From Tetradesmus obliquus (taxonomy: Eukaryota; Chlorophyta; Chlorophyceae; Sphaeropleales; Scenedesmaceae), in NCBI GenBank assembly GCA_030272155.1, contig CP126204.1:1603501-1667500 (forward strand): a stretch of DNA of 64,000 bases, in the 5' to 3' direction. The position numbers and the translations under genes are program-made. The notes below the pieces were generated by a model. The model had not been told where the DNA came from. It was given only the letters and a program-made list of their open reading frames with translations, and did no database searches. How positions within the stretch are numbered: position 1 is the stretch's first letter; each line of letters begins with the position of its first letter. Of the stretch, positions 1 through 64,000 are shown one piece after another.

Positions 1-611
1 TTTCTCCTGCCGTGCGTCAGCTCAATTAAATAGTTGAATAGATTTTATTACAATGCCAAGAGTGCAGCAACATCAAAGCATCCTGCTTGGTAGGGCAACC
101 GTTGAGACAAGTAACGTGTGGTTCAGTAGCTGGAGCTGCATGAAGCACATGTTAGCACGTACAATAATTAATTTTAGCCGTAAAAAGTACAATCATTCAC
201 GCACATCGGCTCAACTCGCCTGCATGTGAACTGCCCATCAACAGCACTGCTGCCCTGGCAGAACTGCCTTGCCACGCGCCCGCGCTTTTCACTCTGGGCC
301 AGTCTATGCACCAATACACCATCTGAAAATTATTATCAGATAACAATCTATCAACTTATCATGCCTGTGGCTGTCCATGCTGGCATACAGTTGAAAACAG
401 AGACATAACCACCCAGCTACAGCATGGCACCAGCACATCGCCGGCGCCGTGCGGTGCGCACACACAGGAGCCCAACCAGCAGAGGAGCTGTCAGAAAGGT
501 GAGCTTGCAGGGAGTGTCAATCAACGACCTGCTGACAGCTGCTAGCTGTCTAGAGTGCAGCCAGCAGCCATATACATTCTAAGCCCTGCAGCAGCAGCAG
601 CAGCAGCGTGC

Positions 612-2830: not shown

Positions 2831-4921
2831 GGATTCAAAACATATGCAGGCGTCAGCTGTGCTTCTGCTAGCAGTGCAAACAGAAATAACATGTCAGGTC
2901 AACCTAATGTTTGCAGCAACCTGGGGTTTGACCAGCCTTCACTAGGCACTGGTACGAAAGTAGCGCAAAGGCAGCATACTCATTGAATGCAACTTTCAAC
3001 AACGAATCTAAATCAAATTGAGCCACTATATGGGTTGCTGTGTAACTTGAGTAAAGTGCTTGCAAACCACCTGCTGCGCCCCGACTCTTTGAATTTTCGC
3101 GGGTCTGTTATCTGCTGCTTTCTGCTGCTATAGGGCGCTGCTGCCTGCACATATGTATTTATGTAACCGTTTCTACTTCTGGGCAGCACCTGCTGGCTGA
3201 TCGGGCTCTGCAGCTGTGGTGTGCCAAGTGCCCTGCCGCTGTTGTTGCGGTCTGCTGTCTGGCCCTGTACGTTGTGCGCTGCGCTGCTGCTGCTAATCTT
3301 GTTGCGGATCACCGATCGACGTTTCAGCATTACAGGCAGCTGCTGCGCGTGTGCAGCTAGGGTGGTTGAGCACAGTTGGTTGAGTGCTGCCAGTCCACAC
3401 ACTCTCCTGCAGACATTCATCTTGTGTGATCACGCTGAATTCTGGAGCTGAAAAAAACTAGCAGTTTGGAGCGGGCGCTGCAAGCAGGTGAGGTGCCTGC
3501 AGGACAGCTGACATGCAAGCAAACCAAGGCAGCAGGTTCAGCAGCTGTGCCTTGCTGTACCTACCACAAGCAGCAGGTTGCTGTGCCAGCATGGCTTTCT
3601 GTTTGTGTGCTATGTGGCTTTGTCTCATATCTGGGATGCTAGGTTCGTACCCTACCCCACTGAAGGCAAAAATGCACATCTTCCTTTGCTGCAGCAGTTC
3701 TCAGCCTGCATTGCAATCCTGCTGCTGCTGTTTCTGGGCAAAGTTGATGAAATGCCTGCCCACCTTTTTATGTTATAGCAGGCCTGCTGCAACTGCTGCT
3801 GGTGGTGCAGCTGTCCCAAATCCTGCATTACTGTTGTTTGCAATTGCTGGGACCTGCCTGGCCAGCAGCACATTCAGCAGCAGACAGCAGAGTGCAGCTC
3901 AGAGGAGGGTGCTGTCACCTGCTGTAGCCTCTGTTTTTCGAATGCACACTTTGCCAGGCAAGACAGCAGCAGCAGCAGCCTGGTGGTCATGCAGTGCTGC
4001 TGCTAAATTTACAAAAGCACATTCAGAGCACAGCCTTGTCTTGAAAGACGTTTTTAAAGCAATCCGAATTGTCTGCTGTTGCTGCCGCAGCACGATCGAG
4101 CTGGCGTAGCCTGCACAGGTGTCTTGGACTCACTGGCTCCGTGACCAGGCTGGCTGCCCGGCGTCCCACCGGAGAAAATTCTCGGCCCAGTAAGATGTAA
4201 GAACCAGCTGTTATGTATGAGGATAAGTTTGCAGCGTGACAGCTGTCTGCATCGAGAGTGGCTGATTCGGCAGCACTTCCCCGTCACGGATTACCTGACT
4301 CAAACACAGCTTTCTCCTGCCGTGCGTCAGCTCAATTAAATAGTTGAATAGATTTTATTACAATGCCAAGAGTGCAGCAACATCAAAGCATCCTGCTTGG
4401 TAGGGCAACCGTTGAGACAAGTAACGTGTGGTTCAGTAGCTGGAGCTGCATGAAGCACATGTTAGCACGTACAATAATTAATTTTAGCCGTAAAAAGTAC
4501 AATCATTCACGCACATCGGCTCAACTCGCCTGCATGTGAACTGCCCATCAACAGCACTGCTGCCCTGGCAGAACTGCCTTGCCACGCGCCCGCGCTTTTC
4601 ACTCTGGGCCAGTCTATGCACCAATACACCATCTGAAAATTATTATCAGATAACAATCTATCAACTTATCATGCCTGTGGCTGTCCATGCTGGCATACAG
4701 TTGAAAACAGAGACATAACCACCCAGCTACAGCATGGCACCAGCACATCGCCGGCGCCGTGCGGTGCGCACACACAGGAGCCCAACCAGCAGAGGAGCTG
4801 TCAGAAAGGTGAGCTTGCAGGGAGTGTCAATCAACGACCTGCTGACAGCTGCTAGCTGTCTAGAGTGCAGCCAGCAGCCATATACATTCTAAGCCCTGCA
4901 GCAGCAGCAGCAGCAGCGTGC

Positions 4922-7140
4922 TCAGCGCTGATCATCCCTAGGCCAGTTGCCAGCCGTACCCGTGCGCTGCTTGTTGTCACGGCATACAAACACCCTGTCC
5001 AGCCTGCTGCGCACCACATCCCACAAATCTGGCAGCCTCAGTGCATCAGCCATGACAGAGGCAGGTGTGATGTTCATGAATATGTCACGCAGCGTCCGCT
5101 GCAGATCACGCGGTGATACATCTGCACCAGTCAGCTGGTAGGTGTTGTACAGATGGTTGCGGAAGCTAGCCTTGAGGCTGCCGAATGCATGCTCAATGGG
5201 CTGGTTGAAGTCTGGGGAGTAGGGTGCAATTTGCAGCACCTGCTCTGGGCTGATGCCAACTGCAGCTAGGAGCTCTGCGGCATCCTGCCCGACATGAACA
5301 CTGGGGTTGTCGAAGATGTACAGCGGCGTAGTGCCGCGCGCGCGCTGCTGTTGGTTAGCCTTCTCTGCAAGCTCCTTCATGCAGTGGACAAACTCCAGCT
5401 GTGTCATGCTCTTGGCCTTCACGTTCTTCTTCTTCTTCTGCCTCTTCAACTGCAGGTGCAGGTTTTGCCGGGTTGGCAGCGGAAAGCCTTGTTAGCAGCA
5501 GCGCAGCTGAATGTGGATGTGCAAGTGGATGATAAGGGACGCCCATTCATCAGGCTTGAGGCAGATGGGAAAAGCAGGCCCAGGATCATCAGCTTGGGGA
5601 TACGCAAGCGGCCACTGCACTGGGCCATGACGGGTTGCCTGCCAGGTGTGCAGCACTTCAAGTTCTGCGAGCCGCGCGCTGCCGCAACTGAAGCAGCTCT
5701 GGAGTGCAAGCAGTGTGCATGTTTGATGCCTAATGTGGGTGGCACAGGCGCACGCAACATGCCTGCAAGTGAGGAGCAGCTGATGCGCAAGCTGTACAGG
5801 TTGGGAATATGTGACAGCATGTGCGCGCAAGTGGCAGTAGGGTGGTGGCGAGGCCGGGTCGATTTCTTGCATGCGCAGCGCAGCGTGCTGATTCAAGCAG
5901 ATGGGACATGCCATGACACTGGTATGTATGACAACAGCACAGAGAAGCTGTTGCAGCGCAACGTTGCCTTCTGTGCTGCTGCGTATGCCAAGTTCCTGCC
6001 AGCAGGCGGCAGTGTGCTGCGGGTGCGCACATGTGAAAGTGACTGGCAGGATTCCCTGGAGACTGGTTTCCAGCTTGCTGCTGGGGGTGGTGTCATTGTG
6101 CTGTCACCAAGCTACTCTGTTGTTATGGTCAGCGCAGGCCGCGGTGTGCAGCGCGCCTTCCCTGAGGCACTGCGAGATGCACTGCCACGTTGTGTGTACA
6201 CAGAACGCAACAGCTGGCATGTCCTTCAATGGCGCGCATCTAACTAATAGCAGCACACACTCACATAGTATGGTGTGTTGGGGTTGCCAACGTGGTCAAT
6301 GTTGTCTGTTGTGCCGGTGGTGAACTTGCAGTAGACAGCGCCGTGCACCGCGTTGACGCACACAAAGTGTAGCTTGACTGGTTTGTTGTCCTGGCCCTTG
6401 CGCATCCACTTGCATGGTAGCACAGCATGTACGTTTGCATCATGTGCATCGCAATACACCTTGATGGCGCCGCCTGCTAGGTTGGACATCCAGAGTTTGC
6501 ACTCATCAACAAAATAAATTCTGCTCAGCAAGTCTGGCTCATCCTGGAACATCTTGTAGAGCCTCTCTGCTGCAGCCTTTCTCCTGTCTTTCTGCTTGTC
6601 TGTCAGGTCCATCTTTACATCTATTCTTCTGCGCACCAGGTTGGGGTCGACAGCTTTCATGCGCTTCAGCAGTTGCTTGGGCCTGATGTTGTACTTCCTG
6701 CATAGGCCACCCAGGTACTCATTTTCCTGACAAGCAAGTTTGATTGATGTCCACCATACATGCACGTCGACTTTCTTCTTTGCTTCTGCACTTGGGTAGG
6801 CCTTGACTACCTTGCCAGCTTTGAATGTTTCACTGGCCTTTAATGCCACGTCATCTGGGACTTTTGGGGGTCTGCCCTTGTGCTTGGGAGTTGCCACCGT
6901 GCCATACTGCTTGAAGTTCTTGTAGTGGGTCATGCAGAAGGAATTCAGGTCCTGTTTGATTTGAGCAGCATGCTTAGGATAGTGTACTCTGTAATAGCCT
7001 GCCGCGCCCTTTGGACTGCCGGCGATGGCTAGCATCGTGAGCACCGCCACCACCGCCGCCACCCGCGCGCCCGTTGACTTGCGGTTGCTCTCCCATCCCA
7101 AAGGGTGCTTGCGCACCATGGACAGCCACCCTGCAGCCAT
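4922..7140 (-). CDS. Tc1/mariner-like DDE transposase, two exons (copy 2)
   Basis: Second copy of the transposase gene, identical in protein to the one 4,310 bp upstream. Exon 1 is 7140-6265 and exon 2 is 5449-4922, with a GTGAGT...CTGCAG intron between them. The same DD38E triad is present and no lesion is seen. Both copies are therefore potentially functional, or are a single copy duplicated in assembly. Confidence 0.78.
5294..6247 (+). CDS. Antisense PD-(D/E)XK-like ORF in transposase intron (copy 2)
   Basis: Identical second copy of the 317-codon antisense ORF, again spanning the transposase intron (5450-6264) on the opposite strand. The same RVDF...QADG...H...VLRV signature is present, with the same uncertainty over the true start and function. 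Confidence 0.52.
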   Translation: MNTGVVEDVQRRSAARALLLVSLLCKLLHAVDKLQLCHALGLHVLLLLLPLQLQVQVLPGWQRKALLAAAQLNVDVQVDDKGRPFIRLEADGKSRPRIISLGIRKRPLHWAMTGCLPGVQHFKFCEPRAAATEAALECKQCACLMPNVGGTGARNMPASEEQLMRKLYRLGICDSMCAQVAVGWWRGRVDFLHAQRSVLIQADGTCHDTGMYDNSTEKLLQRNVAFCAAAYAKFLPAGGSVLRVRTCESDWQDSLETGFQLAAGGGVIVLSPSYSVVMVSAGRGVQRAFPEALRDALPRCVYTERNSWHVLQWRASN

Positions 7141-7975
7141 GGATTCAAAACATATGCAGGCGTCAGCTGTGCTTCTGCTAGCAGTGCAAACAGAAATAAC
7201 ATGTCAGGTCAACCTAATGTTTGCAGCAACCTGGGGTTTGACCAGCCTTCACTAGGCACTGGTACGAAAGTAGCGCAAAGGCAGCATACTCATTGAATGC
7301 AACTTTCAACAACGAATCTAAATCAAATTGAGCCACTATATGGGTTGCTGTGTAACTTGAGTAAAGTGCTTGCAAACCACCTGCTGCGCCCCGACTCTTT
7401 GAATTTTCGCGGGTCTGTTATCTGCTGCTTTCTGCTGCTATAGGGCGCTGCTGCCTGCACATATGTATTTATGTAACCGTTTCTACTTCTGGGCAGCACC
7501 TGCTGGCTGATCGGGCTCTGCAGCTGTGGTGTGCCAAGTGCCCTGCCGCTGTTGTTGCGGTCTGCTGTCTGGCCCTGTACGTTGTGCGCTGCGCTGCTGC
7601 TGCTAATCTTGTTGCGGATCACCGATCGACGTTTCAGCATTACAGGCAGCTGCTGCGCGTGTGCAGCTAGGGTGGTTGAGCACAGTTGGTTGAGTGCTGC
7701 CAGTCCACACACTCTCCTGCAGACATTCATCTTGTGTGATCACGCTGAATTCTGGAGCTGAAAAAAACTAGCAGTTTGGAGCGGGCGCTGCAAGCAGGTG
7801 AGGTGCCTGCAGGACAGCTGACATGCAAGCAAACCAAGGCAGCAGGTTCAGCAGCTGTGCCTTGCTGTACCTACCACAAGCAGCAGGTTGCTGTGCCAGC
7901 ATGGCTTTCTGTTTGTGTGCTATGTGGCTTTGTCTCATATCTGGGATGCTAGGTTCGTACCCTACCCCACTGTGT

Positions 7976-14460: not shown

Positions 14461-17177
14461 TATGCTTTGGTGACACAATCTGCAGCTGGCGACTGCTTGA
14501 GTCCTCCGCCGCCCTTGTTTTGGAATCTCCCACAGGGAGTGGATGTTTCATACGGAGCCTGGTACCTTGCATGCGGTTCCACCAAAGTAGGCTCGCAGGG
14601 CCTTGCAGCAGCATGTGAAAGAGGAACTGGTTATCTGGCAGCCAAATGCACAAAGAGTGGATGGGCGGTTGCATTGCACAACTGCAAGCCAGTGACTCCC
14701 TGCAAGCGGACCCCTGCATTCACCACGAACGGCGCAACCTTCAATGCAACCGCTTGGGCGGATGCCTGCGCCAACGTGCCGATGTATGAAACATGTGTGA
14801 CACGTGCTGCGTGCTCATCTGGGCAACCACTGTCCGCGAGGTGCTGGTATGGGTGGGTGAACGATACTCTGTCGGGTGAACGAGACTGGCTTCCTAGCTG
14901 GACAGATCTTAAAGGCAACTGCACAGGTACAGAGCCAGTGCAGTGCAGCTCTGCACCAGTGAATGTTCCTACTCTGGGAAGTTCAGTTTTCCTTTCACAG
15001 CTCTGGATTGGGCAGTGCGGCATGACAAAGGAGAACGCAAAATGCAGCGTGGTGGACGCCGCGTGCTCGTCTGGCGGCACCATCAGCGCAAATTGCAGCA
15101 AGGGTGCTAGTGGTGCTGGCATGTGGACAGACGTTCAGGGTGCTTGCAAGGGAGTAGCGCCGCCTGTTCAGTGCAGCTTTGCACCAGAGAATGGCCGCAC
15201 TCTGGGTAACTCAGTGTTCGTGTCAGCAATTTGGAATGCACAGTGCGGCACGACAAAGGAGAATGCAACGTGCAGCGTGGTGGATGCCGCATGCTCGGCT
15301 GGTGGCACTATCAGTGCTAAGTGCACTAAGGTTGCAAATGGTGCTGGGGTGTGGACAGACGTCCAGGGTGCTTGCAAGGCGCCAGCAGCGCAGCCTGTCC
15401 AGTGCAGCTCTGTACCTGAGAATGTGCCTACTATGGGCGGCTCTATGTTCTATTCAGAGCCCTGGAGTGCAGCGTGCGGCTTGACGAAAGAGAATGCAAC
15501 GTGTACTGTAGTGGACGCTGCTTGCTCGTCTGGCGGCACAATTAGTGCCAAGTGTACTAAGGGTGCGAACGGTGCTGGAGTGTGGACAGAGATTCAAGGG
15601 TCTTGCAAGGCGCCAATAGCACTGCCTGTCCAATGCAGTTCTGCACCAGACAATGTTCCCACTTTGGGAGGTTCACTTTTCTTTCCAGAGCCCTGGATTG
15701 GCCAGTGCGGCATGACACAAGAAGGCGCAATGTGCACTGTGGTGGACGCTGCTTGCTCGTCTGGCGGCACCATCAGCGCAAAGTGCAGCAAGGGTGCCAA
15801 CAGAGCTGGAGTGTGGACAGACATCCAAGGAGCTTGCAAGGCGCCTGCTGGTGAGTGGTGGATTCAAGTTCAACCACGTGCAGCAGAGCGCCGGAGCAGT
15901 GCCCCATAGCTGCTGCTGTCACCGGTCACGCCTGTGCAGCGTGCCTGCATGCGGCAGCAACAGCAGCAGCAGTTGTTTCTGCCGGGTTAATCTGGTGCAC
16001 CAGTGGCGACCGCTGCAATATTTCAGTTTACAAAGCGGCACGACTGTTCTGATTGAGTGTCGAGTGTGAAATGGCACAGTTGTTGTCGCACGCATGCCTG
16101 CATGGCTCATGGTGCCTTCTTCTTCCTTTGTGTGCACTGCTGCTGACTGTGCCGCTACTTACTGTCCTGTGCAGTACTGTGCCGCCTTGAACATCTGCCT
16201 TGCTTTAGCCACATGCCTAGCCAACTGCAAGTCACTGCTCTGCTGTGGCAAATTGATACAGTGTCACAAGCCGTCACTGCCCTGCAAGTGCACATGAAAC
16301 TGGCGAACACATCTCTCCACAGCAACCATCATCTCATCACCTGCCTGCCGCTTCACTCTGCATGCTGCAGGCACCTGCAGCGGCGCACCAGGTTCTGTGC
16401 AAACTGTGGGTGGTGGAGTCTTCAGCGCTGCTGCATGGGCTGCTGCATGCGGCTCCACAACACGCGGCAGCGGCTGTAGCGCCAACAGCGCCTGCTCTGC
16501 TGGCACAGGCGTCATCAGCGCAACATGTGATGCATCAGGCAGCTAGGTTAATGTGCAAGGCAGTTGCACTGCCGCAGTGTCGGGTGAGTGATGCAAGTGT
16601 CACTGCGAATGTGTCGTGATGTGTCAGTCACACCCAAGACACGCGCGGCACGCCTGTCGAGAGTCAAAATTATGCTCATGTTGCACTCATATACGTATAC
16701 ATTGACTTGCCTTTGAATTGTTGTCTGCTGCATGCAGCGCAGCATAAAGGTGCCATTGCAGCAGCAGCAGCAGCAGCAGCAAGTTAGCCGTGCTTTTCTT
16801 CGCCATGTCATGCAATTTCATGGAATAGCACGTGTGCAATCCTTTGGTTCTCCCTTAGCTGCATGCACTGCATCAAACACTGCAGCCACAAACTAATCCT
16901 GTCTTGGACGATCCTTGCCACCCTGCTGTCACTGGTTGCCCTGATGCTGCTTCTGCTGCTGCTGTTGCTGCTGCCTACAGCACCCTGCGCCACCACAACG
17001 GCTGGCATGCAGGCGGTACCCAACATTGACCTGACAAAGTGGCTGAGCCAATGCGGCAACACAACACTGGGCGTTCAATGCCAGGCCAACGACCCATGCC
17101 TTGGAAGCAAGCAGGGGTCTGTCTTTGCAACCTGCACTGCGTACGGCTGGGCCTCTGTGTCAGGTTTCTGCTTGTAG

Positions 17178-22117: not shown

Positions 22118-25100
22118 GCAGAAGCGGTAGCAGCAGCAGCAATTGCAGCAGCAGCAGTAAGGTGTTCTGGTTTGACTTTACAATAAGGCTGCTGGTTTCA
22201 GGTGCAGCAGCGGCAAGAGCATCAAAAGTCATGCAGCATGTGCATCATGCGCCCCTACAGGCCAGCTTGCCATGCATTGCCATGATGGCAGCTTTTAGCT
22301 TAGCTTGGTTTTGAGCTCTTCACTCAAGTGACCAGCGCTCTGAAGGTCCTGCAGGCATACCTTATGAGGCAGTTGACTAGTGTATGCGGTGCTGTATACG
22401 TCCCAAGCAGCGCCCTGCAATCGGCAGCGAGCTGCTACTTGTGTCAGTCAGCATATCAGGCAGCATACGAGGCAGCATATGAGGCAGCATATGAGGCAGC
22501 ATATGAGGCAGCATATGAGGCAGCATATGAGGCAGAATACGAGGCAGCATATGAGGCAGCATATGAGGCAGCATACGAGGCAGCATACGAGGCAGCATAT
22601 GAGGCAGCATATGAGGCAGCATACGAGGCAGCATACGAGGCAGCATATGAGGCAGTGTGTGTGGCAGCTTGTGTGGCAGCGTGTGTGGCAGCGTGTGTGG
22701 CACACCGTCTGAATGGCTGCCGTTCTGACGACAGGCGCATGTTGCTGCGCTGCTTCTGCGCAGATCTCTCCCAGTTCACTTTGGTCAGTTCTTCTGGCGG
22801 TGCCCCCGTCTTCTTTGACACGCAAGGTGAGCTGCTCTGACTGCTCAACACAAACAGTGACTTTGCTCTGACTGCTTGGTTCTGTTCTGGTGCTGGCGCC
22901 GCACTCTGACCGCACAGCGCACTGCAGTACACCCTAGAAGAGGATACAATTTGCCAAGGTTTGGTTGCCTGTCCAGCACAATTTTGAAGGCTGAGGCAGC
23001 GTGTGAGGCAGCGTGTGAGGCAGCGTGTGAGGCAGTATGTGCAGCAGCATGTGATGCAGCATGTGATGCAGCTTGTGATGCAGCATGCAGGCGCAGCCAG
23101 GTCTGGCATTAAAGCTAGCCCAGGTGCATGCGCAAGAGATTGTTGCAGTGACTACGTTATATAGCGTCACGTTGTAAGTGCACCAAAAGATGTGGTGTGT
23201 GGCGCATGGCAGTGCACCGCTCTCCCTGTCATGTCTGCTGCAAGTGACCAGACAATCAACGCGGTTGCTGCTGCTGCCGCTGCTGCCTGCTGCTGCCTGC
23301 TGCCGCATGTGTCAATGACAAAACCTGCAGGTAACACATGCACGGAACCTCCAACGCCTGACGTGTTCAAACTGCCGGCAGGCTTTGATATCTTGAAAGC
23401 AGCCTGGCAGCTGAATTGTGGCATCACGAAGCCCGGTCAAAGCTGCAGTGCAGCAGCCTGTGAGAATGGCGCTGGCACACTCACAGCAACTTGCAGCGCA
23501 GGTGGCGCATGGACAAATGGCACCGGCAGCTGCACTCCCCTGACATGTGAGAAGGCAGCAGCACCTGCATTCCCCACCAGCGGTGCAACATTTGATGCAG
23601 CAGCGTGGGGAGCTGCCTGTGGCAGCACACAGCTCGGCAAAGAGTGTGTGACAGGTGCTGCATGCTCATCTGGCCAACAGCTGTCAGCTACTTGTGAGTA
23701 TCTGCCAGTAGGCAGTGGCCGGGTTGCCACTTGGACAAAGCTGACAGGCAGCTGCACAGCTGTAGCAGGGCCTGTTCAATGCATGTCTGCACCAGAGAAT
23801 GTGCCTACCACAGGTGGTGCAGTGTTCTTTTCCGAGCTCTGGATTGGCCATGGCCAATCAGAGAATGTGCCACACTGGCCAGTGTGGCATGACAAAAGAG
23901 AATGCAACATGTACTGTTGTGGACGCTGTGTGCTCGTCTGGCGGCACCATCAGCGCAAAGTGCAGCAAGGGTGCAAATGGTGCTGGAGTGTGGACAGACA
24001 TACAGGGCAGTTGCAAGGCAGCAGTGGCACCGCCTATTCAGTGCAGCTCTGCACCACAGAACGTTCCTACTCTGGGAGGTTCAGTGTTCTCCACGGCGCT
24101 TTGGATCGGACAGTGCAACACCACGACCGAGAACTCTACGTGTACTGTGGTGGACGCTGCTTGCTCGTCTGGTGGCACCATCAGCGCAAAGTGCACAAAA
24201 GGTGCAAACGGTGTTGGAGTGTGGGCAGACATTCAAGGGGTGTGCAAGGCGCCTGCAGCACCGCCCGTTCAGTGCCTGTCTGCACCAGATAGTGTGTCCA
24301 CTTTGGGAAGCTCTATGTTCTATCCCGAGGCCTGGATTGGGCAGTGCGGCACGACAAAGGAGAACGCAACATGCACTGTAGTGGACACAGCTTGCTCCAA
24401 TGGCGGCACCATCAGCGCAAAGTGCAGCAAGGGTGCTAGTGGTGCTGGCGTGTGGACAGACTTACAGGGAGCGTGCAAGGCGCCGGCACGTAAGTGGTGG
24501 ACACTGCTGCCTTGTTGTCGCAGCATGCCTGCATGCAGCAGCAGCAGCAGCAGCAGCAGCACCAGCAGCAGCACCAGCTGCGCTTGCCGTCAATAACATG
24601 ATGCTGCAGTGGATTCCATTGGCACACTGTTGATAACGCAGCAGCAGATGTGTTTGGGTGAGTGAGAATGGCCTATGGTTGATGCCACACACATGCCTGC
24701 ACAGCAAACCGTGCCTGCTTCCTCCCAATTGTGCTGCACCCTTGCTGACTGTGACCCCTGCTGTCTCTCTGTGCCTGCTGCTGCCCCATACCCTTGAACC
24801 CTGTGCAGCTGTTTCCTGCGGTACAACACCTATGCCTTCTGCTGCTGCTGGCTGGATCACCAACGGGGCACCCTTGAGCGCCACTGCTTGGGCGGCCGCA
24901 TGCAGCCAGACAGTACAGGGCCAGACCTGCAGTGCTGCTGCTTGTGGTGGTGGATTCACTGGCACCTTGTCAGCTGTATGCCAGGTGGGGCAGCAGTAGC
25001 ACTGCTGTTGGTCACCTACAGCTTGACGTGTGAAGCGTTCGATGTGCAATGACTCGTTGTGCAGCTGTCAAAAGCACTTGACATGTTGCTGTGTGTGCTA

Positions 25101-30159: not shown

Positions 30160-30633
30160 ATATAAGGAAAGTTGCCGAATTGCATTCATTACAAGCATCA
30201 GCATCATGCAACATAATGCGCACTCACATGGCAAGAAGTGGTCCCCCGAAAGGCCACCGTGGCTGCTGAACCTCAGATTAGCATGTGCAGCTCCTGCTTC
30301 TGCTCCTACGTCGTCTAGTATTACCTGCAACCATAACAACACCTGGTCAGCGCCGTCCCGAAGAGCCACGATGCCCTTCGGGGGCAACGGCACTGACAGT
30401 CTTCCATCCTCTTGTAGTCCTTGGTAGCCTGGGTAGTGACACCTTGTCAGTGACGCCACTTGGTTGACACCGTAGCTCAGATTGAAGGTGAAGTTTTCCT
30501 CGCAAGAAGCAGGAGTGGCAGTAGTGTAAATTGCATGTAATGGGGGAATGTGTATGCCTGCTTTACCGTTTCGTACTACTGTCATTCAAAGTTGACTGTC
30601 CTAGTGGCCATGTATGGCATGTTGTAAATTTTG
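30160..30633. repeat. 474-bp direct repeat, copy 1
   Basis: Apparently identical to 32243-32716. It carries an open minus-strand frame of about 140 codons (FTFNLSYGVNQVASLTRC and so on) with no recognised domain; in copy 1 this frame continues to 29785 (266 codons). Boundaries read ATATAAGGAAAG and GTAAATTTTG, without TG...CA ends. Confidence 0.9.
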
Positions 30634-32242: not shown

Positions 32243-32716
32243 ATATAAGGAAAGTTGCCGAATTGCATTCATTACAAGCATCAGCATCATGCAACATAAT
32301 GCGCACTCACATGGCAAGAAGTGGTCCCCCGAAAGGCCACCGTGGCTGCTGAACCTCAGATTAGCATGTGCAGCTCCTGCTTCTGCTCCTACGTCGTCTA
32401 GTATTACCTGCAACCATAACAACACCTGGTCAGCGCCGTCCCGAAGAGCCACGATGCCCTTCGGGGGCAACGGCACTGACAGTCTTCCATCCTCTTGTAG
32501 TCCTTGGTAGCCTGGGTAGTGACACCTTGTCAGTGACGCCACTTGGTTGACACCGTAGCTCAGATTGAAGGTGAAGTTTTCCTCGCAAGAAGCAGGAGTG
32601 GCAGTAGTGTAAATTGCATGTAATGGGGGAATGTGTATGCCTGCTTTACCGTTTCGTACTACTGTCATTCAAAGTTGACTGTCCTAGTGGCCATGTATGG
32701 CATGTTGTAAATTTTG
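32243..32716. repeat. 474-bp direct repeat, copy 2
   Basis: Second copy of the 474-bp segment, 2,083 bp downstream in the same orientation. The minus-strand frame here is 188 codons (32668-32102) and diverges from copy 1 outside the repeat. No element-wide target-site duplication was found. Confidence 0.9.
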
Positions 32717-51558: not shown

Positions 51559-51934
51559 TGTTGAGAATCAGTGTTGTCTTGGCCTGTATTCTCGCTGACA
51601 GCATGTTACCCCCAGCAGTGCTCAACCTGAGCACTGCCCTGTTTGACAGTCTTACATATGACAGCACATACTTGTTCCTACCTGCTTTACATGTTGATAT
51701 GTTCGTATTGTGATATGCTCCCAGTACGATCAAAGGCCCCCGGCAATGACTAATGTGCCGGGGCGACTAATAGAGCGGGAAGCCTCCACGGTCAGCTTCC
51801 TGCATAATCCCGGCTCCAGCCGAGGCATAGACGGACTATATAAGTCCCTAACTCTGTATTCAACTGTAACGTGCCTACTCCTGAGCCTTCGTCTCTACCT
51901 AAGTCTACTCCACACAAGGCCGTATCCTTTAACA
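51559..51934 (+). repeat. 5' LTR of copia element
   Basis: 376 bp, starting TGTTGAGAATCAG and ending CCTTTAACA. A TATA box lies inside the perfect inverted repeat GGACTATATAAGTCC (51834-51848), the likely U3 promoter. Confidence 0.95.
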
Positions 51935-51946
51935 GGTTATGAGCCC
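51935..51946 (+). promoter_or_regulatory. Primer-binding site: half-tRNA (initiator Met) type
   Basis: GGTTATGAGCCC begins directly after the 5' LTR. It is complementary to GGGCTCATAACC, the anticodon stem-loop sequence of a eukaryotic initiator tRNA-Met, not to a tRNA 3' end. This matches the internal half-tRNA priming known for Drosophila copia and proposed for Volvox Osser. Confidence 0.75.
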
Positions 51947-52769
51947 ATATCACGCTCCACTGCGCAACACACTCGACTTCAACACAGTAGACTACACCTC
52001 AGCCCATCGCTTCCCTATCTTTCCAGCTCAGCTTAGCCAACAGGCATCGTTCACAGGCCGAGCCCCTCGTCTACCCTCCAGGCCGGCCCCTCGACCTTCC
52101 AGTCATCGTTCGCTGGACTTCTACATCAACTGCGACCTTATCTGAGTATCTTGAGAATATCAGCAGTCTTATTACTGTGGCAACAGGCCGCCTTCGACCC
52201 TGCAGCACCTTATCAGGCTGCCTTTGTCAGAACAGCACTAGCAGCACCATACCGGGCTGCCTTTGATAAATTGCACGTGGATCTACAGCTCAGCACGGCT
52301 GCAGCCTTTGCCTCAATATCCACCCTCGCAGCTCAGCAGCCCTGCATCGCTGCCTTCGAGAAGTTCAGTGACAGCTTCGCAGCTGCCTTCGACCCGAGCC
52401 AACTTTCAAACCAATTCAAGACTCGGCAGCACAGCAATTCAGCCTCTAGCAACCCTGCTTCTTGAGTACACCTAAGCCTCGGTACCGCTGCTCTGTCCTT
52501 CGTTGCGCCCGCAGGAGACCTACCGGCTACGACTCTCCCGGTTCCGCAACAAGGCGCCCTCCGTGTCTCCCGCACCGGGAACCCAAGCACACGGTCAGGG
52601 TGGACTACCACAGAGCCTACCAGGCCTCGGCTACCAGACCAATTACCCGTACCAGTCAGCTCCCAGTCAGCCCACAGTCAGCTGCAGCTAACGCTGCAGC
52701 GCTGCAGCCCATCGCTGCAGTTCCAGCAACCTGACTGCAGCACCCCAGCTGCAACTCAGCTAGCCCAAC

Positions 52770-55700
52770 ATGAACGAGCTCGGCCTCACCGCAGGCCTGC
52801 GAGTTCAATTTGGCAAAGTGCACCACTCAGAGTGGAAAAGGCACGTAGAGTCCCACGCAGACGCCAAGGGATGGCTCTCAGCCCTCACCACAGCTAACGA
52901 TCCCAACTCTGGCAAAGTGCTGTACCTCATACAGACCTCCCTGGACAGCCAAACCACAGCGCTGACCATCAGCTGCAGGACCGCCAAGGACCTGTACGAC
53001 AAGCTGAACGCGCTGTACCAGTCCAGCAGCATTGCGCAGACCCAGCAGCTGACCAAGGCATTCGTCAACGCTGAGCAGCAGCCCGGCGAGAAGGTGGAGG
53101 GCTGGGGAGCGCGCCTGGGCATGTGCCAGGCAGACCTGGCGGCAGCAGGAGCACCTGTAACAGACGCACAGGTGGCAAAGATCTTCCTGGCCGGCCTGCT
53201 GCCCATGTTCGACATCCCCAAGAGCCACTTCATCAACGAGAGGCAGCTGCCCAGCGTCATTGACATGCTGCCAAAGCTCATGGAGTGGCAGTCCCTCAAG
53301 GAGCGCACTGCAGACGAGCCGCTGCAGGCCCAGGCCTACTTCACACCAAGCAGCAGCGGCAGCTATGCTGCCCGCGGCAGCAGCAGCTCCTTTGGCCATA
53401 CCGCCCGCCGCAGCAGCAGCCCCTTCAGCCACTCTGGCCGCAGCAGCAGCTCCTTCCACCAGCGCAGCAGCAGCTCCTCAAGCAGCAGGCCGCACTCCAA
53501 CAGTGACGGGCAAGCACCACGCCTCTGCCTCTACTGCCACAAGCCCGGCCACGACATCGCTGTTTGCCGTTCACGCATCGCAGCAGAGCAGCGCAAGGGC
53601 AGCTCCAGCAGCTCCAGCAGGCCCAAGCACGTGCACTTCAACAGGCACGCTGACAACACCAGCAGCCGGCCCTCAACACCCAAGGGCGGCAGCCGCAAGA
53701 AGTCACAGGAGCCTGTCCTGTGGATGGCAGCAGCACAGCCAGTGGGCAGCATTGATGAGTGGTTTGTGGACACCGCCTGCACCTGGAGCGTCACCGGCTA
53801 CGAGTTGCTGATCGAGAACCCAACGCCCAGCAGCATGGAGATCACCCTGGGCGACGGCAGCACGGTGAAGGCCCTGTGCAAGGGAGACGTGACCCTCATC
53901 GACACGCCGGGCCACCGCAAGACAGTGCTGCGCAACGTGCACTATGTCCCTGGCTTTACCGCCAACCTGCTGTCCTTCAGCGCCATTGCCAAGGCAGGCG
54001 CCTACATCCAGTCCAGCCCCTACTCCAGCCGGCTGCACATCTTCCAGGACGATGACCTGATCATCACGGCAGAGGAGCACACTGCCACAGGCATTCCGTT
54101 CTTCCACAGCCGCATTGCGGCCAGCAAGAGCATCAGCCTCGCCGCCGCAGCATCCAAGGTGACGGCGGAGACCTGGCACAACCGCTTCGGCCACCTGGGC
54201 TACGACAGCATGGCCAGGCTGGTGGCGGAGGACATGGTCAAGGGCATCAACCTCACACCTGAGGACTTCGCAGCAGCAGACAGCGCCTGCGACGCCTGTG
54301 CTGTCGGCAAGTTCACACGTGGCCCCTTCAGGACATCTGCCAACAAAACCTCCAGCCCGCTGCAGCTGCTGCACTCCGACATCTGCGGCCCCATCCGCAT
54401 CCCAAGTCCGGGCAACGCACGCTTCTTCATCACCCTGGTGGACGACTACACCAGCTACTCCTTCGTGCGGCCCCTCCAGCACAAGTCAGAGGCAGCGCTC
54501 TTCATTGAGAACCACATCACGCTGCTGGAGAACCAGACAGGCCTGCAAGTCAAGGCCTTCCGCAGCGACAACGGGCGCGAGTACGCCAACTCCACCCTGA
54601 AGAGCTACCTCGCAAGCAAGGGCATCATCTACCAGCCATCCATGGCCTACACACCCGAGCAGAACGGTGTGGCGGAGCGCATCAACAGGACGCTGCTGTC
54701 CAAGGCAATCCCCATGCTAGAAGCCTCCGGCCTCGAGCCCAGGTATTGGGCGGAGACCCTCATGGCCAGCAACTACGTGCGAGTCCGCTCACCTGTGGCA
54801 GGCAAGCCCCTCACACCATACGAGGCGCTGTTCAACGTGAAGCCTGATGTGTCACACCTCGCCACCTTCGGCTGCCAGGCCTACTACAGCGTACCCCGCA
54901 TTCTGCGTAACAACAAGTTCTCGCCCCCAGCAGCACGCGCCATCATGGTGGGCTATGCAGCGCAGGGCAAGGGCTACAGGCTACTCACAGGCAACGGCAG
55001 CATCCTGGAGCGTGCGAGCGTGACCTTCAATGAGAAGCACTTCCCTGCCAAGAGCAGCAGCAGCAGCAGCTACCGCAGCCTGCTGCTGCCTAACCTGCGT
55101 GACATCCTCGCTGGAGAGCCCTCCTCAGTGCCCCGCACACCCGCACCGGCAGCAGTTCCTGCACCCGAGCCGGCAGCAGCTGCTGCACCCGAGCCACCAG
55201 GGCCCGCCTACAGCACGCGCTCACGCACCAACACAGCGCTCGCAGCAACAGCACTTGCCCCAGAGCCCCAGAACTACAAGGAGGCAACCAGTCGCCCAGA
55301 TGCCCCGCTCTGGGTCGACGCTATGAACACAGAGATACAGGGCATCCGCTCCAACGGCACCTGGGTGCTGGGCTTCCCACCACCTGGCACCAAGGTGCTC
55401 GACACAAAGTGGACCTTCAAGCTCAAGCGCAACAGCGACGGCAGCACCGAGCGCCGCAAGGCCCGCGTGGTAGCCAAGGGCTTCCAGCAGCAGGAAGGGC
55501 GCGACTACTTCGAGATCTTCGCACCAGTGGGCAAGTACACCAGCATGCGCGCCCTCACCGCCAAGGCAGCAGCAGAGGACCTGATCATCCACAACATTGA
55601 CTTCTCATCCGCCTTCCTGAACGGCACCCTGGAGGAGGAGGTGTGGATCAGGCAGCCCGAGGGCTACGTTGAAGGCAAGCCAGGCATGGCCTGCAAGCTC

Positions 55701-56804
55701 GTCAAGTCCCTATACGGCCTCAAGCAGGCGCCGCGCGTCTGGCACCTGAACCTGGACGACATCATCCAGGAGAAGGGCTTCAAGCCCTCAGAGGCAGACC
55801 CGTGCCTCTACCACTACACCGGCAGCGAGTACCACCCGGAGACATACCTGCTGGTGTACGTGGACGACGTGGCCATCTACACCAAGTCCCAGGAGAGCGC
55901 CGACGCCCTCATCAGCTACTTCAGCAGCAAGTACAAGCTGCGCGACCTCGGAGCAGCAGAGCAGTTCCTGGGCATCAGCATCACGCGCCAGCCCACCGGC
56001 ATCAAACTGGCTCAGGAGCGCATGATCAACGACCTGGCGGCCAAGTACGGCATGGAGAACAGCAACGGGCGCCTCCTGCCCATGAGCCCCGGCACCAAGC
56101 TCACCAAGGATGAAGACAGCGAGCCGCTGGACACCAGCAAGTACCCGTACGCAACACTGGTGGGCGCGCTGCTGTACCTGGCAAACTGCACACGCCCGGA
56201 CATCGCCTACCCAGTCGGTGTCTTGGCGCGCTTCATGGCCAACCCCAGGATGAGCCACTGGCAGGCAGCCAAGGGCGTGCTGCGCTACCTGGCAGGCACC
56301 AGCACCTACGGCCTCAACTACAGCAAGGCCGGCAGCAGCAGCACCCTCATCGGCTACACAGACAGCGACTTCGCTGGCGATGCAGACACTCGCCGCTCCA
56401 CAGCAGGCTTCACCTTCATCAAGGGCAACGCAGCAATCTGCTGGCAGAGCAAGCGCCAGCCAACAGTGGCCACATCCACCACCGAGGCTGAGTACATGGG
56501 AGCAGCCACATCAGTCAAAGAGGCACTGTGGCTGGGCGTGCTGCACCGCGACATCGGCTACAACATCACCACCGTGGAGATCAAGGCAGACAACCAGTCC
56601 GCACTGGCCATCCTGCACAACCCGGTGACCTCAGGCCGCGCCAAGCACATCGACGTGGCCTACCACTTTGCTCGCGAGCGCGTGCAGCGCGGCGACATCA
56701 GCTTCAGCTACATCAGCACCAACGAGATGACAGCAGACATCATGACCAAGGCACTGCCAGCACCCAAGTTTGAGTACTGCAGGCGCCAGATGGGAGTGTT
56801 TTAG
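52770..56804 (+). CDS. Copia Gag-Pol polyprotein (1,344 aa)
   Basis: One open frame encodes all functions for reverse transcription and integration. Gag of the UBN2 type is at residues ~45-180, followed by a Ser-rich linker. A CCHC zinc knuckle C-x2-C-x4-H-x4-C is at 253-266. Aspartic protease is at about 332 (FVDTACTWS; the family usually has D-S/T-G). The integrase zinc-binding residues are H470, H475, C507 and C510, and the integrase triad is D537, D600 (RSDNGREY) and E636. Reverse transcriptase carries YVDDV near 1030, and RNase H carries YTDSDFAG near 1195 and TKAL near the end. The order INT-RT-RH is diagnostic of Ty1/copia. No stops or frameshifts are seen. The codon use is GC-richer than the neighbouring genes. 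Confidence 0.97.
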   Translation: MNELGLTAGLRVQFGKVHHSEWKRHVESHADAKGWLSALTTANDPNSGKVLYLIQTSLDSQTTALTISCRTAKDLYDKLNALYQSSSIAQTQQLTKAFVNAEQQPGEKVEGWGARLGMCQADLAAAGAPVTDAQVAKIFLAGLLPMFDIPKSHFINERQLPSVIDMLPKLMEWQSLKERTADEPLQAQAYFTPSSSGSYAARGSSSSFGHTARRSSSPFSHSGRSSSSFHQRSSSSSSSRPHSNSDGQAPRLCLYCHKPGHDIAVCRSRIAAEQRKGSSSSSSRPKHVHFNRHADNTSSRPSTPKGGSRKKSQEPVLWMAAAQPVGSIDEWFVDTACTWSVTGYELLIENPTPSSMEITLGDGSTVKALCKGDVTLIDTPGHRKTVLRNVHYVPGFTANLLSFSAIAKAGAYIQSSPYSSRLHIFQDDDLIITAEEHTATGIPFFHSRIAASKSISLAAAASKVTAETWHNRFGHLGYDSMARLVAEDMVKGINLTPEDFAAADSACDACAVGKFTRGPFRTSANKTSSPLQLLHSDICGPIRIPSPGNARFFITLVDDYTSYSFVRPLQHKSEAALFIENHITLLENQTGLQVKAFRSDNGREYANSTLKSYLASKGIIYQPSMAYTPEQNGVAERINRTLLSKAIPMLEASGLEPRYWAETLMASNYVRVRSPVAGKPLTPYEALFNVKPDVSHLATFGCQAYYSVPRILRNNKFSPPAARAIMVGYAAQGKGYRLLTGNGSILERASVTFNEKHFPAKSSSSSSYRSLLLPNLRDILAGEPSSVPRTPAPAAVPAPEPAAAAAPEPPGPAYSTRSRTNTALAATALAPEPQNYKEATSRPDAPLWVDAMNTEIQGIRSNGTWVLGFPPPGTKVLDTKWTFKLKRNSDGSTERRKARVVAKGFQQQEGRDYFEIFAPVGKYTSMRALTAKAAAEDLIIHNIDFSSAFLNGTLEEEVWIRQPEGYVEGKPGMACKLVKSLYGLKQAPRVWHLNLDDIIQEKGFKPSEADPCLYHYTGSEYHPETYLLVYVDDVAIYTKSQESADALISYFSSKYKLRDLGAAEQFLGISITRQPTGIKLAQERMINDLAAKYGMENSNGRLLPMSPGTKLTKDEDSEPLDTSKYPYATLVGALLYLANCTRPDIAYPVGVLARFMANPRMSHWQAAKGVLRYLAGTSTYGLNYSKAGSSSTLIGYTDSDFAGDADTRRSTAGFTFIKGNAAICWQSKRQPTVATSTTEAEYMGAATSVKEALWLGVLHRDIGYNITTVEIKADNQSALAILHNPVTSGRAKHIDVAYHFARERVQRGDISFSYISTNEMTADIMTKALPAPKFEYCRRQMGVF

Positions 56805-57028
56805 AGCTCCGAGGGAGCTTAGGTTACGAGGGAGTCCAGAGTCCCTTTTCCTCTGCACCAGCTAGCAGTGCGTGGATGCAATCCGCACGGGCATACGGCG
56901 CACGTGCTCTCACGGCGCTGCTGGTAGCCAGCATGATTAGATTTAGCTTGTATGATTTGTCGAAAGGTCACACAATGCCTACACAGTTTCAATCAGTCAC
57001 TGTACGTGTCACGCTAGAATGTCAGGCC

Positions 57029-57038
57029 AACGAGGGAG
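57029..57038 (+). promoter_or_regulatory. Polypurine tract of copia element
   Basis: The purine-rich AACGAGGGAG abuts the 3' LTR, where plus-strand DNA synthesis would start. A similar ACGAGGGAG occurs at about 56825. Confidence 0.55.
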
Positions 57039-57414
57039 TGTTGAGAATCAGTGTTGTCTTGGCCTGTATTCTCGCTGACAGCATGTTACCCCCAGCAGTG
57101 CTCAACCTGAGCACTGCCCTGTTTGACAGTCTTACATATGACAGCACATACTTGTTCCTACCTGCTTTACATGTTGATATGTTCGTATTGTGATATGCTC
57201 CCAGTACGATCAAAGGCCCCCGGCAATGACTAATGTGCCGGGGCGACTAATAGAGCGGGAAGCTTCCACGGTCAGCTTCCTGCATAATCCCGGCTCCAGC
57301 CGAGGCATAGACGGACTATATAAGTCCCTAACTCTGTATTCAACTGTAACGTGCCTACTCCTGAGCCTTCGTCTCTACCTAAGTCTACTCCACACAAGGC
57401 CGTATCCTTTAACA
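57039..57414 (+). repeat. 3' LTR of copia element
   Basis: 376 bp, one substitution from the 5' LTR (57264), followed directly by the AAAAC target-site duplication. Confidence 0.95.
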
Positions 57415-59676: not shown

Positions 59677-62600
59677 CCTGAGTGCAGCTGCCAGTTGCAA
59701 CATCCCATCGACCCTGCAAGTCACACGTTGCGGTGATGCTGGCTGAGCTGCCATTATCGCAAGCTGTGGACGAGCAGGCGTTGCCGCGCGTTGTGGAGCC
59801 ACAGTCAGTGCCCCATTTGGCGCTGTCCAGGCCTCCCCCCGGGACATCTGGTGCGTCGATGCAGGTGCCCGCACTGCCTGCAACACGCAGTGGCAGCCAC
59901 ACTTGAGATGTGCCACTCATGGAGTGTGCAGTGCGTAATGTGTTTGAGCGGGGTTTGGCGTGTGCAGCTAGACGTAATGCGCGCACACCACGGCCAAGAG
60001 ACGAAGTAACATCTTGTACACACGACTCAGAGCAACACAGCGACAGATGCGGGGTTTGGCAGCATGCAACTGCTTCTGCCAAACAAACTTGCCTCACCAC
60101 CAAACTATTCCATCGCCCCCCACTAACTGCACAGCCAAGGCCACTTGCCGCACAAGCACCTCACTTACTAGGACTGCAAGTGTTGGACGTGACTTGCCAG
60201 ATGCCTGCTGCAAGGCAGGTGGCGGTGATGCTGCCTGCGTTGCCAGCAGAGCAGGAGCTGGTGGAAGTGCAACTGCTGCCACGCGCGGTGGTGCCACAGG
60301 CAGTGTTCCATGCAGAGCTGTCCAAGAGGGGAAATACAACGTCAATGACGCAGGTGTCTGCAGAAGCAGGCGGTGTGCAGTTGTCGCAGCGTGTCAGATG
60401 TGCTACTTGTGAGGTGCAGTGTGCATGCCATGCTTGCGCGGGGTAGCGGCGAAGGCATACGCTGAAGCAAGCGCTGCAGGCCGCACAGGAACAACGTGAC
60501 CTGCCCTCGGCTGTGCATACCATGACTTGCCCTTGGCTGTGCATATGACTGAAGCAAGGCAGAAGTGCGAACTTGAACATCAATGCATAGGCCCACACAC
60601 ATGCGGTGCGGCTGCGCACAGCGCACACGTCCCTGTGCTGAAAAGGCATCAATACCATACCACAGGTAGCTGAGCCTGCATGCTAAATGTGGTGCAGTCA
60701 GCTATGCAAATCATCTCGGTTGTGCACGCGCTGCTGCACCTAGATCATTGTAAGGGTCGAGCACCTCTCGCAATGAGTGCACGCCACGGCACCAGAATCA
60801 GAGGCACATCAAAGTTTGCTTGACTGCTCTTGCTGCCGCCGCCTAGAGTGATTCGTCAATGCTGCGCTGCTGCTGCATCAAGCCCCATGACCACCAGACG
60901 TGTTTACAAGCAAGTCAGAGCAACAAAGCGACAGATGCGGGGTTTGGCAGCATGCAGCTGCTACTGCCATGAAAATTTGCCTCACCACCGAACTACTCAT
61001 TGCCCCCCACTAACTGCACAGCCAAGGCCACTTGCCGCACAAGCGCCTCACTTACTAGGACAAGTGTTGGACGTGACTTGCCAGGTGCCTGCTGCAGTGC
61101 AGGTGGCGGTGACGCTGCCTGTGCTGCCAGTATCGCAGGAGTTGGTGGAAGTGCAGGCGCTGCCACGCGCGGTGGTGCCACAGGCAGTGTTCCATAAAGA
61201 GCTGTCCACGAGGGCAACGTTCAGGGCAGTGGTGCACGTGTCTGCAGCAGCAGGCGGTGTGCAGTTGTCGCAGCGTGTCAGATGTGCTACTTGTGAGGTG
61301 CGGTGTGCATGCCATGCTTGCGCGGGGTAGCTGCAAAGGCATAGGCTTAAACAAGCGCTACATGCCGCACATGAACAACGTGACCTGCCCTCGGCTGTGC
61401 ATACCATGACTTGCCCTTGGCTGTGCATATGACTGAAGCAAGGCAGATACCAAACAGTAACTGTCATGCACGAGCCCAAACCCATGTGATGCGGCTGCGC
61501 ACAGTGCACACGTCCCTGTGCTGCCAAGGCATCAACACCAAACTACTGGTACCTGAGCCTGCGTGCTAAATGTGGTGCATGCAAGCTAGGCGAATCATCT
61601 CGGTTGTGCACGCACTGCTGCACCTAGATCATTGTAAGGGTCGAGCACCTCTCGCAATGAGTGCACGCCACGGCACCAGAATCAGAGGCACATCAAAGTT
61701 TGCTTGACTGCTCTTGCTGCCGCCGCCTAGAGTGATTCGTCAATGCTGAGCTGCTGCTGCATCAAGCCCCATGGCCACCAGACGTGTTTACAAGCAAGTC
61801 AGAGCAACAAAGCGACAGATGCGGGGTTTGGCAGCATGCAGCTGCTACTGCCAAAGAAACTTGCCTCACCACCGAACTACTCACTTCCCCCCACTAACTG
61901 CACAGCCAAGGCCACTTGCCGCACAAGCGCCTCACTTACTAGGACAAGTGTTGGACGTGACTTGCCAGGTGCCTGCTGCAGTGCAGGTGGCGGTGACGCT
62001 GCCTGCAGTGCCAGCAGAGCAGGAGCTGGTGGAAGTGCAGCTGCTGCCACCCGCGGTGGTGCCACAGGCAGTGTTCCATAAAGAGCTGTCCACGAGGGCA
62101 ACGTTCAGGGCAGTGGTGCACCTGTCTGCAGCAGCAGGCGGTGTGCAGTTGTTGCAGCATGTCAGATGTGCTACTTGTGAGGTGCGGTGTGCATGCCATG
62201 CTTGCGCGGGGTAGCTGCAAAGGCACAGGCTTAAACAAGCGCTACATGCCGCACATGAACAACGTGACCTGCCCTTGGCTGGGCATACCATGACTTGCCC
62301 TTGGCTGTGCATATGACTGAAGCAAGACAGAAGTGCGAACTTGAACATCAATGCATAGGCCCACACACATGCGGTGCGGCTGCGCACAGCGCACACGTCC
62401 CTGTGCTGAAAAGGCATCAATACCATACCACAGGTAGCTGAGCCTGCGTGCTAAATGTGGTGCATGCAGCTAGGCGAATCATCTCGGTTGTGCACGCACT
62501 GCTGCACCTAGATCATTGTAAGGGTCGAGCACCTCTCGCAATGAGTGCACGCCACGGCACCAGAATCAGAGGCACATCAAAGTTTGCTTGACTGCTCTTG

Positions 62601-63897
62601 CTGCCGTCGCCTAGAGTGATTCGTCAATGCTGCGCTGCTGCTGCATCAAGCCACATGACCACCAGACGTGTCTACAAGCAAGTCAGAGCAACAAAGCGCC
62701 AGATGCAGACTGTGGCACCATGCAGCTGCTACTGCCAAACAAACTTGCCTCACCACCAAACTATTCCATCGCCCCCCACTAACTGCACAGCCAAGGCCAC
62801 TTGCCGCACAAGCACCTCACTTACTAGGACTGCAAGTGTTGGACGTGACTTGCCAGATGCCTGCTGCAAGGCAGGTGGCGGTGATGCTGCCTGCGTTGCC
62901 AGCAGAGCAGGAGCTGGTGGAAGTGCAACTGCTGCCACGCGCGGTGGTGCCACAGGCAGTGTTCCATGCAGAGCTGTCCAAGAGGGGAAATACAACGTCA
63001 ATGACGCAGGTGTCTGCAGAAGCAGGCGGTGTGCAGTTGTCGCAGCGTGTCAGATGTGCTACTTGTGAGGTGCAGTGTGCATGCCATGCTTGCGCGGGGT
63101 AGCGGCGAAGGCATACGCTGAAGCAAGCGCTGCAGGCCGCACAGGAACAACGTGACCTGCCCTCGGCTGTGCATACCATGACTTGCCCTTGGCTGTGCAT
63201 ATGACTGAAGCAAGGCAGAAGTGCGAACTTGAACATCAACGCATAGGCCCACACACATGCGGTGCGGCTGCGCACAGCGCACACGTCCCTGTGCTGAAAA
63301 GGCATCAATACCATACCACAGGTAGCTGAGCCTGCATGCTAAATGTGGTGCAGTCAGCTATGCAAATCATCTCGGTTGTGCACGCGCTGCTGCACCTAGA
63401 TCATTGTAAGGGTCGAGCACCTCTCGCAATGAGTGCACGCCACGGCACCAGAATCAGAGGCACATCAAAGTTTGCTTGACTGCTCTTGCTGCCGCCGCCT
63501 AGAGTGATTCGTCAATGCTGAGCTGCTGCTGCATCAAGCCCCATGACCACCAGACGTGTTTACAAGCAAGTCAGAGCAACAAAGCGACGGATGCGGGGTT
63601 TGGCAGCATGCAGCTGCTACTGCCAAAGAAACTTGCCTCACCACCGAACTACTCACTTCCCCCCACTAACTGCACAGCCAAGGCCACTTGCCGCACAAGC
63701 GCCTCACTTACTAGGACAAGTGTTGGACGTGACTTGCCAGGTGCCTGCTGCAGTGCAGGTGGCGGTGACGCTGCCTGTGCTGCCAGTATCGCAGGAGTTG
63801 ATGGAAGTGCAGGCGCTGCCACGCGCGGTGGTGCCACAGGCAGTGTTCCATAAAGAGCTGTCCACGAGGGCAACGTTCAGGGCAGTGGTGCACCTGT
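59677..63897 (-). CDS. Gene F: tandem array of six-cysteine module exons (partial)
   Basis: Minus-strand gene entering from beyond the right edge. Six module exons are visible: 63897-63712, 63013-62825, 62125-61940, 61241-61056, 60357-60169 and 59877-59677. Each starts after CTGCAG or TTGCAG, ends before GTAAGT or GTGAGT, and is phase 1-1, so any number can be joined without losing frame. Each codes one module of 62-67 residues, for example N-T-C...SSAWNTACGTTARGSSC...SITATC...GIWQVTSNTC, the same module as in genes A, B and C. Introns between the repeated units are 698-699 nt, and the last intron is 291 nt. The start, signal peptide and terminal exon are not in view. The product is likely secreted (inference from the family). 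Confidence 0.75.
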
Positions 63898-64000
63898 CTG
63901 CAGCAGCAGGCGGTGTGCAGTTGTTGCAGCATGTCAGATGTGCTACTTGTGAGGTGCGGTGTGCATGCCATGCTTGCGCGGGGTAGCTGCAAAGGCACAG
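60040..64000 (-). repeat. ~885-bp tandem exon-intron repeat with 2,656-bp higher-order unit
   Basis: Exon-plus-intron units recur at 882-894-bp spacing. Units 1 and 4 (and units 2 and 5) are exactly 2,656 bp apart. Units 1 and 4 encode identical peptides over 165 codons. The array continues past the window. Confidence 0.9.

Follow-up and report, generated by a model that had tools for sequence, protein, structure and literature searches.

The human kringle-IV type 2 (KIV-2) VNTR of LPA is an intragenic, protein-coding tandem array. Exons and long introns make up its unit, which codes for a cysteine-rich module; each kringle is encoded by two exons. Complement receptor 1 (CR1), which is also built from repeated cysteine-rich modules (CCP/sushi), occurs as length alleles. 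The NBPF genes contain repeat units of about 1.6 kb arranged in higher-order repeats (PMC9584774). In Tetrahymena, LRR genes contain arrays of same-phase 90-bp exons whose numbers vary between inparalogues, and these arrays are attributed to unequal crossing-over, possibly with retrotransposition (PMC6564038). Among the literature matches listed, no green-algal array of exon plus intron of a similar kind was seen, which does not prove that none exists.

We analyzed a window of 64,000 nucleotides of Tetradesmus obliquus (C14:1603501-1667500, contig 14 of a 104.66-Mb genome in 17 contigs), and the flank past the window end was also read. Nine exon-plus-intron units were found on the minus strand at window-coordinates 60027-67857 (C14:1663527-1671357), a count that comes from one assembly. 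The length and identity of these repeats are far beyond chance. We consider it very probable that they form an intragenic tandem array within the gene of a modular extracellular protein of secreted type, and that this array grows and is reshuffled by mis-paired exchange between introns. The features, all on the minus strand, are as follows.

59677..59877, minus strand: diverged last module exon, with a phase-1 acceptor TGTTGCAG/GC and donor AGG/GTGAGT, outside the homogenised array
60027..60168, minus strand: downstream array edge, where 142 bp of repeat intron remain beyond the A4 donor
60169..60357, minus strand: module exon A4, 189 nt, phase 1-1
60358..61055, minus strand: repeat intron B3/A4, 698 bp
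61056..61241, minus strand: module exon B3, 186 nt, phase 1-1
61242..61939, minus strand: repeat intron C/B3, 698 bp, A-/B-type mosaic
61940..62125, minus strand: module exon C, 186 nt, phase 1-1, with B-type ends and a mostly A-type middle
62126..62824, minus strand: repeat intron A3/C, 699 bp, A-type with a B-type block
62825..63013, minus strand: module exon A3, 189 nt, phase 1-1, identical to exon A4
63014..63711, minus strand: repeat intron B2/A3, 698 bp
63712..63897, minus strand: module exon B2, 186 nt, phase 1-1
63898..64000, minus strand: 3' (acceptor-side) part of repeat intron A2/B2, cut by the window end
past the window end, up to window-coordinate 67857, minus strand: exons A2, B1, A1 and C'

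The units are 884, 888 or 890 bp long (range 884-890 bp), with exons of 186 nt (n=5) or 189 nt (n=4) and introns of 698-701 bp that are 90.3-99.7% identical among the eight full units. An earlier note, made from the window sequence, had described units of about 885 bp with near-identical introns. These dimensions agree, but the window cuts the array: it holds five of the nine units, and the array continues 3.9 kb beyond the window end. The exon at 59677-59877, which falls within the stretch given in that note, is a diverged module with 45% identity to unit B3 and no unit of the array. Splice sites and lengths confirmed one exon per module in phase 1-1 in all nine cases, with the CAG/ acceptor and the A/GTAAGTGAGG donor intact. 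Every exon is open (562 codons in sum) and codes for a single six-cysteine module of about 60 residues, although recent copies keep intact frames even without selection, so that nine open exons of nine are weak evidence of function.

As the lengths of all exons are multiples of three and their phases are 1-1, any number of units can be spliced in frame. The array thus resembles LPA KIV-2, with tandem units that include both exon and intron and remain in frame at any number, and by analogy it may be regarded as a further case of the established mechanism of intragenic exon-plus-intron arrays. It differs from LPA in its module, which is a kringle there and sushi/HormR-like here, and copy-number polymorphism is known for LPA, whereas one genome is considered here. 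With the NBPF/Olduvai 3mer the array shares higher-order repeats, but the period is three units there and mainly two here, and the protein domains are unrelated. The Tetrahymena LRR arrays are likewise same-phase exon arrays of a single-celled eukaryote. However, they consist of 90-bp exons with phase-2 introns, encode LRRs and occur in thousands of genes, whereas the exons described here have 186 or 189 nt, are in phase 1 and encode a cysteine-rich module. Finally, CR1 also has repeated cysteine-rich modules, but with four cysteines instead of six, and our structural model places a helix before the strands.

The exon order from 5' to 3' in the gene is C', A1, B1, A2, B2, A3, C, B3 and A4, followed by the diverged last module. 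Exon identity is 98.9-100% within the A type and likewise within the B type, compared with 83.9-86.0% between A and B; C and C' are 97.3% identical to each other, 92.5-94.1% identical to B and 86.6-88.2% to A. Entire units are just as close, with 3 differences in 891 alignment columns between A1 and A2, and 2 in 891 between B1 and B2. When the array was aligned with itself, mean identity was 90.3% at a lag of 888 bp, 95.3% at 1,772 bp, 92.9% at 2,656 bp, 92.9% at 3,544 bp, 94.9% at 4,430 bp, 91.2% at 5,318 bp, 94.4% at 6,204 bp and 91.3% at 7,092 bp. The high values at five and seven units arise because the C unit breaks the A-B phase.

A three-unit superperiod of exactly 2,656 bp had been proposed. 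This lag is indeed exact between 60177-60457 and 62833-63113 (100% identity; A4/A3) and between exons B3 and B2 (98.9%), because the C unit sits between A3 and B3. It is nevertheless a local slip in a mainly dimeric array: exon C pairs with A2 only at a lag of 2,662 bp (86.0%), A2, B2 and A3 find their best match at 1,774 bp (100, 100 and 98.9%), and near the window end and beyond the pattern is A-B, A-B. Since the two-unit lag surpasses the three-unit lag, we rejected the three-unit higher-order repeat; at the higher level the array is built mainly of A-B dimers, whose phase is broken locally.

Exchange between units was examined at 98 sites that differ consistently between A and B, with run tests on four units. 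A3, C and C' proved to be blockwise mosaics (p <= 5e-5, 5e-5 and 7e-4, respectively), while B3 showed no significant blocks (p 0.37). The A3 unit is of A type save for one isolated site and an intronic B-type block, the C unit switches repeatedly between both types, and the C' unit, otherwise of B type, carries an exonic A-type block plus a few single A sites. Between B1 and C', 6 of 698 intron sites and 14 exon sites are different, which indicates that pieces of exon moved between units. Both array edges lie inside introns, where repeat-intron remnants of 142 bp and 412 bp are found, and all ten genome-wide matches of the repeat intron lie within the array. The latter result, from a search that skips very common words, does not support the intron being a transposable element. 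Taken together, the mosaic units, the intronic edges and the confinement of the intron to the array fit mis-paired recombination between introns.

A tree of modules (63 rows with identical rows collapsed, seven tandem copies on contig 4 left out and few columns) united the six distinct modules among the nine of the array in one group (support 98/97). Its closest neighbours are the gene's own last module and module 86402 of the neighbouring gene, joined at a fork with weaker support (89/81). We propose that mis-pairing of the long, near-identical introns would lead to unequal crossing-over and gene conversion, whereby whole modules could be gained, lost and reshuffled without breaking the frame, each exon being flanked by phase-1 introns. 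The A-B dimer of about 1,774 bp would be the clearest recent copy. All nine exons would then be joined into one mRNA, the array protein would be secreted, and the copy number would presumably still be changing. Frame-keeping unequal crossing-over, as suggested previously, is well supported by the anatomy, the mosaic units, the intronic edges and the differing module numbers of the paralogues.

The mosaic structure of A3, C and C' and the disparity between introns and exons in B1 and C' could also be accounted for by an old array of nine units of fixed length, in which gene conversion maintains the similarity of the introns. We regard this as unlikely, given that entire A-B dimers are near-identical at a lag of 1,774 bp and that module numbers vary among the paralogues, which goes beyond what conversion alone can do. 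The symmetry of the exons raises another question. If cells here picked single exons or subsets, as in Dscam-type arrays, the outcome would be isoform diversity instead of one long protein, and all nine exons are of 3n length and phase 1-1, so that every subset is in frame. Nonetheless, with exons that are 98.9-100% identical within each type the isoforms would hardly differ, several family loci have rows of one-exon modules with diverged sequences, and one relative has 31 module motifs within a single open frame; a splicing cassette is therefore distinctly improbable.

The least probable explanation, and in our view a very remote one, is that one or two true units were multiplied during assembly. 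The A1B1 and A2B2 dimers are admittedly hard to count, with 5 differences over two units, but units can be told apart by type and mosaic blocks, their order is no clean repetition, and the assembly comprises 17 contigs, of which three were inspected at their starts and show telomere-like CCCTAAA repeats there. An array that expands and is reshuffled through its introns remains the preferred reading.

With regard to the identity of the module, the resemblance to sushi or to HormR (PF02793) is remote. Searched one by one, the A-type, B-type and last modules gave no Sushi (PF00084) match up to E 10, and neither A nor B reached a Pfam cut-off. In the wider family, 8 of 36 modules matched Sushi at E<=1; when nine picked modules were rescanned, six did so at E<=0.1 and one exceeded the cut-off (26.2 vs 20.7 bits), while most scanned family modules score below current Pfam cut-offs. 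The best match of the family profile among solved structures was CR1 (whole-sequence E 1.1e-4), a score that is the sum of many weak domains, none of which passes individually. Sushi/CCP domains have four cysteines (1-3, 2-4), a tryptophan before the last and an all-beta fold; the predicted structure of the module has a helix ahead of the strands. Modules were collected with a pattern requiring six cysteines and two tryptophans, which modules lacking one of these escape, and the invariance of these residues in the alignment is therefore partly built in. Elsewhere in the genome, three stretches, including C13:4002244-4003449 and C6:3310839-3310973, exceed the Pfam Sushi cut-off, so regular sushi-type domains are probably present in the organism as well.

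Between exons A1 and B1, 25 nonsynonymous and 3 synonymous differences were counted (dN 0.214, dS 0.068), corresponding to 18.6% of nonsynonymous, 6.5% of synonymous and 9.7% of intron sites. The nonsynonymous excess gave one-sided Fisher p values of 0.036 against synonymous and 0.0034 against intron sites, which became 0.089 and 0.28 when the first 12 codons, alternatively readable as two compensating indels, were left out. Six pairs were compared, uncorrected, and only A1/B1 with all codons fell below 0.05 against synonymous sites; the units being recombinant, an assumption of the test is violated. Strong positive selection was consequently rejected, as the significance of A1/B1 hinges on those 12 codons and the other five pairs were non-significant against synonymous sites. 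Diversification of the A and B exons is suggested by these sequences but not proven. Among 19 amino-acid differences, none affected the eight Cys/Trp positions (hypergeometric 0.04), which hints at a kept Cys/Trp core that may be surrounded by a changing surface.

It is conceivable, though doubtful, that the locus is a diversity generator of a free-living alga, driven by recombination, in which the numbers and orders of A, B and C units would vary between strains, diversifying selection would act on exposed module parts while introns are homogenised, and the product would be a secreted wall or recognition protein. This would permit rapid change of both length and surface, which might suit a label for mating or for telling self from non-self, or protection from pathogens or grazers. 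If strains do differ, the gene of this unicellular organism would encode a cysteine-rich extracellular protein of polymorphic length and would offer a locus for directly measuring unequal crossing-over between symmetrical exons.

Upstream of the array, the gene extends in 5' direction, with other domains, to about window-coordinate 75,039. The following pieces were recognised there, all oriented like the array.

68448, minus strand: module with a HAAGTC start
69.7 kb, minus strand: split module
71.2-70.1 kb, minus strand: open frame with four modules
upstream of the array: ephrin-receptor- and EGF-like pieces (Ephrin_rec_like 30.2 and 25.1 bits vs 23.1; EGF_laminin 24.2 vs 21)
75,039: start region with a hydrophobic N-terminus, signal-peptide-like by eye

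The neighbouring gene has a long frame (window-coordinates 86239-85277, beyond the window) with about 15 SPSPVAGSDE-like motif repeats near a related module; by eye, this frame resembles hydroxyproline-rich wall glycoproteins. On the other side, at a distance of about 2.3 kb from the array gene's last module, lies an element of Copia type by eye (51559-57414), whose two 376-bp terminal repeats are 99.7% identical and hence indicate a recent insertion.

Parts of the array gene's architecture recur in paralogues on contigs 6, 10 and 14 as well as within the window. Four of them have a HAAG-type module (at 16361, 26083, 41179 and, in the C14 stretch upstream, 4115) with no extra module between it and the last one (16986, 26533, 41666 and 4847, respectively), a positional comparison that is approximate because the array gene has a last module of a different type. 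The paralogue on contig 10 looks alike, with a partial HAAG match. In five paralogues, a stop follows within a few codons of the last module, and no donor was recognised before it, which favours secretion. The signal-peptide-like N-terminus points in the same direction, and to this extent the surface protein envisaged in the earlier note is plausible; the relative on contig 6, however, continues past its last module. This relative has four HAAG-type modules 747-891 bp apart, with similar exons and largely diverged introns.

Rows of one-exon modules were found on contigs 3, 9, 11 and 4, those on contigs 3, 9 and 11 being diverged. At C4:6667543-6673779, one open frame of 2,079 codons contains 31 module motifs that follow one another in tandem every 195 bp and are about 98% alike where they were compared; it is the intronless counterpart of the array. 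Outside the array and excluding 19 modules of this contig-4 stretch, 47 donors (46 in phase 1, one in phase 2) and 72 acceptors (61 in phase 1, 10 in phase 0, one in phase 2) were recognised among 74 modules, counts that are not independent, given the homology of the modules and the exons that some of them share. Within one protein family, a single genome thus displays module arrays at several stages of growth, namely single modules, diverged one-exon rows, the small array on contig 6, the homogenised exon-plus-intron array and the single frame on contig 4. The 231-bp tandem repeats at 14933-15845 and 23876-24488 belong to the same module family, with several modules per open frame, and lie in paralogues.

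Other repeats are present in the region. In positions 1-7972 and the upstream flank (C14:1589192-1611472), a 4,310-bp unit is repeated head to tail about 5.2 times with 99.9-100% identity. For its first 1,500 bp, 40 genome matches were scored of 270 candidates, mostly in regular rows: contig 13 accounts for 28 (1.05-1.18 Mb), contig 10 for 7 (0.43-0.46 Mb) and the C14 locus for 5. On its minus strand the unit codes for a piece of a DDE_3-type endonuclease (28.9 bits vs a cut-off of 28.6), and judging by these sequence features the repeat would be a DNA transposon that was amplified into a tandem satellite. Two 474-bp direct repeats of identical sequence (30160-30633 and 32243-32716), 2,083 bp apart, are possibly the ends of another young mobile element.
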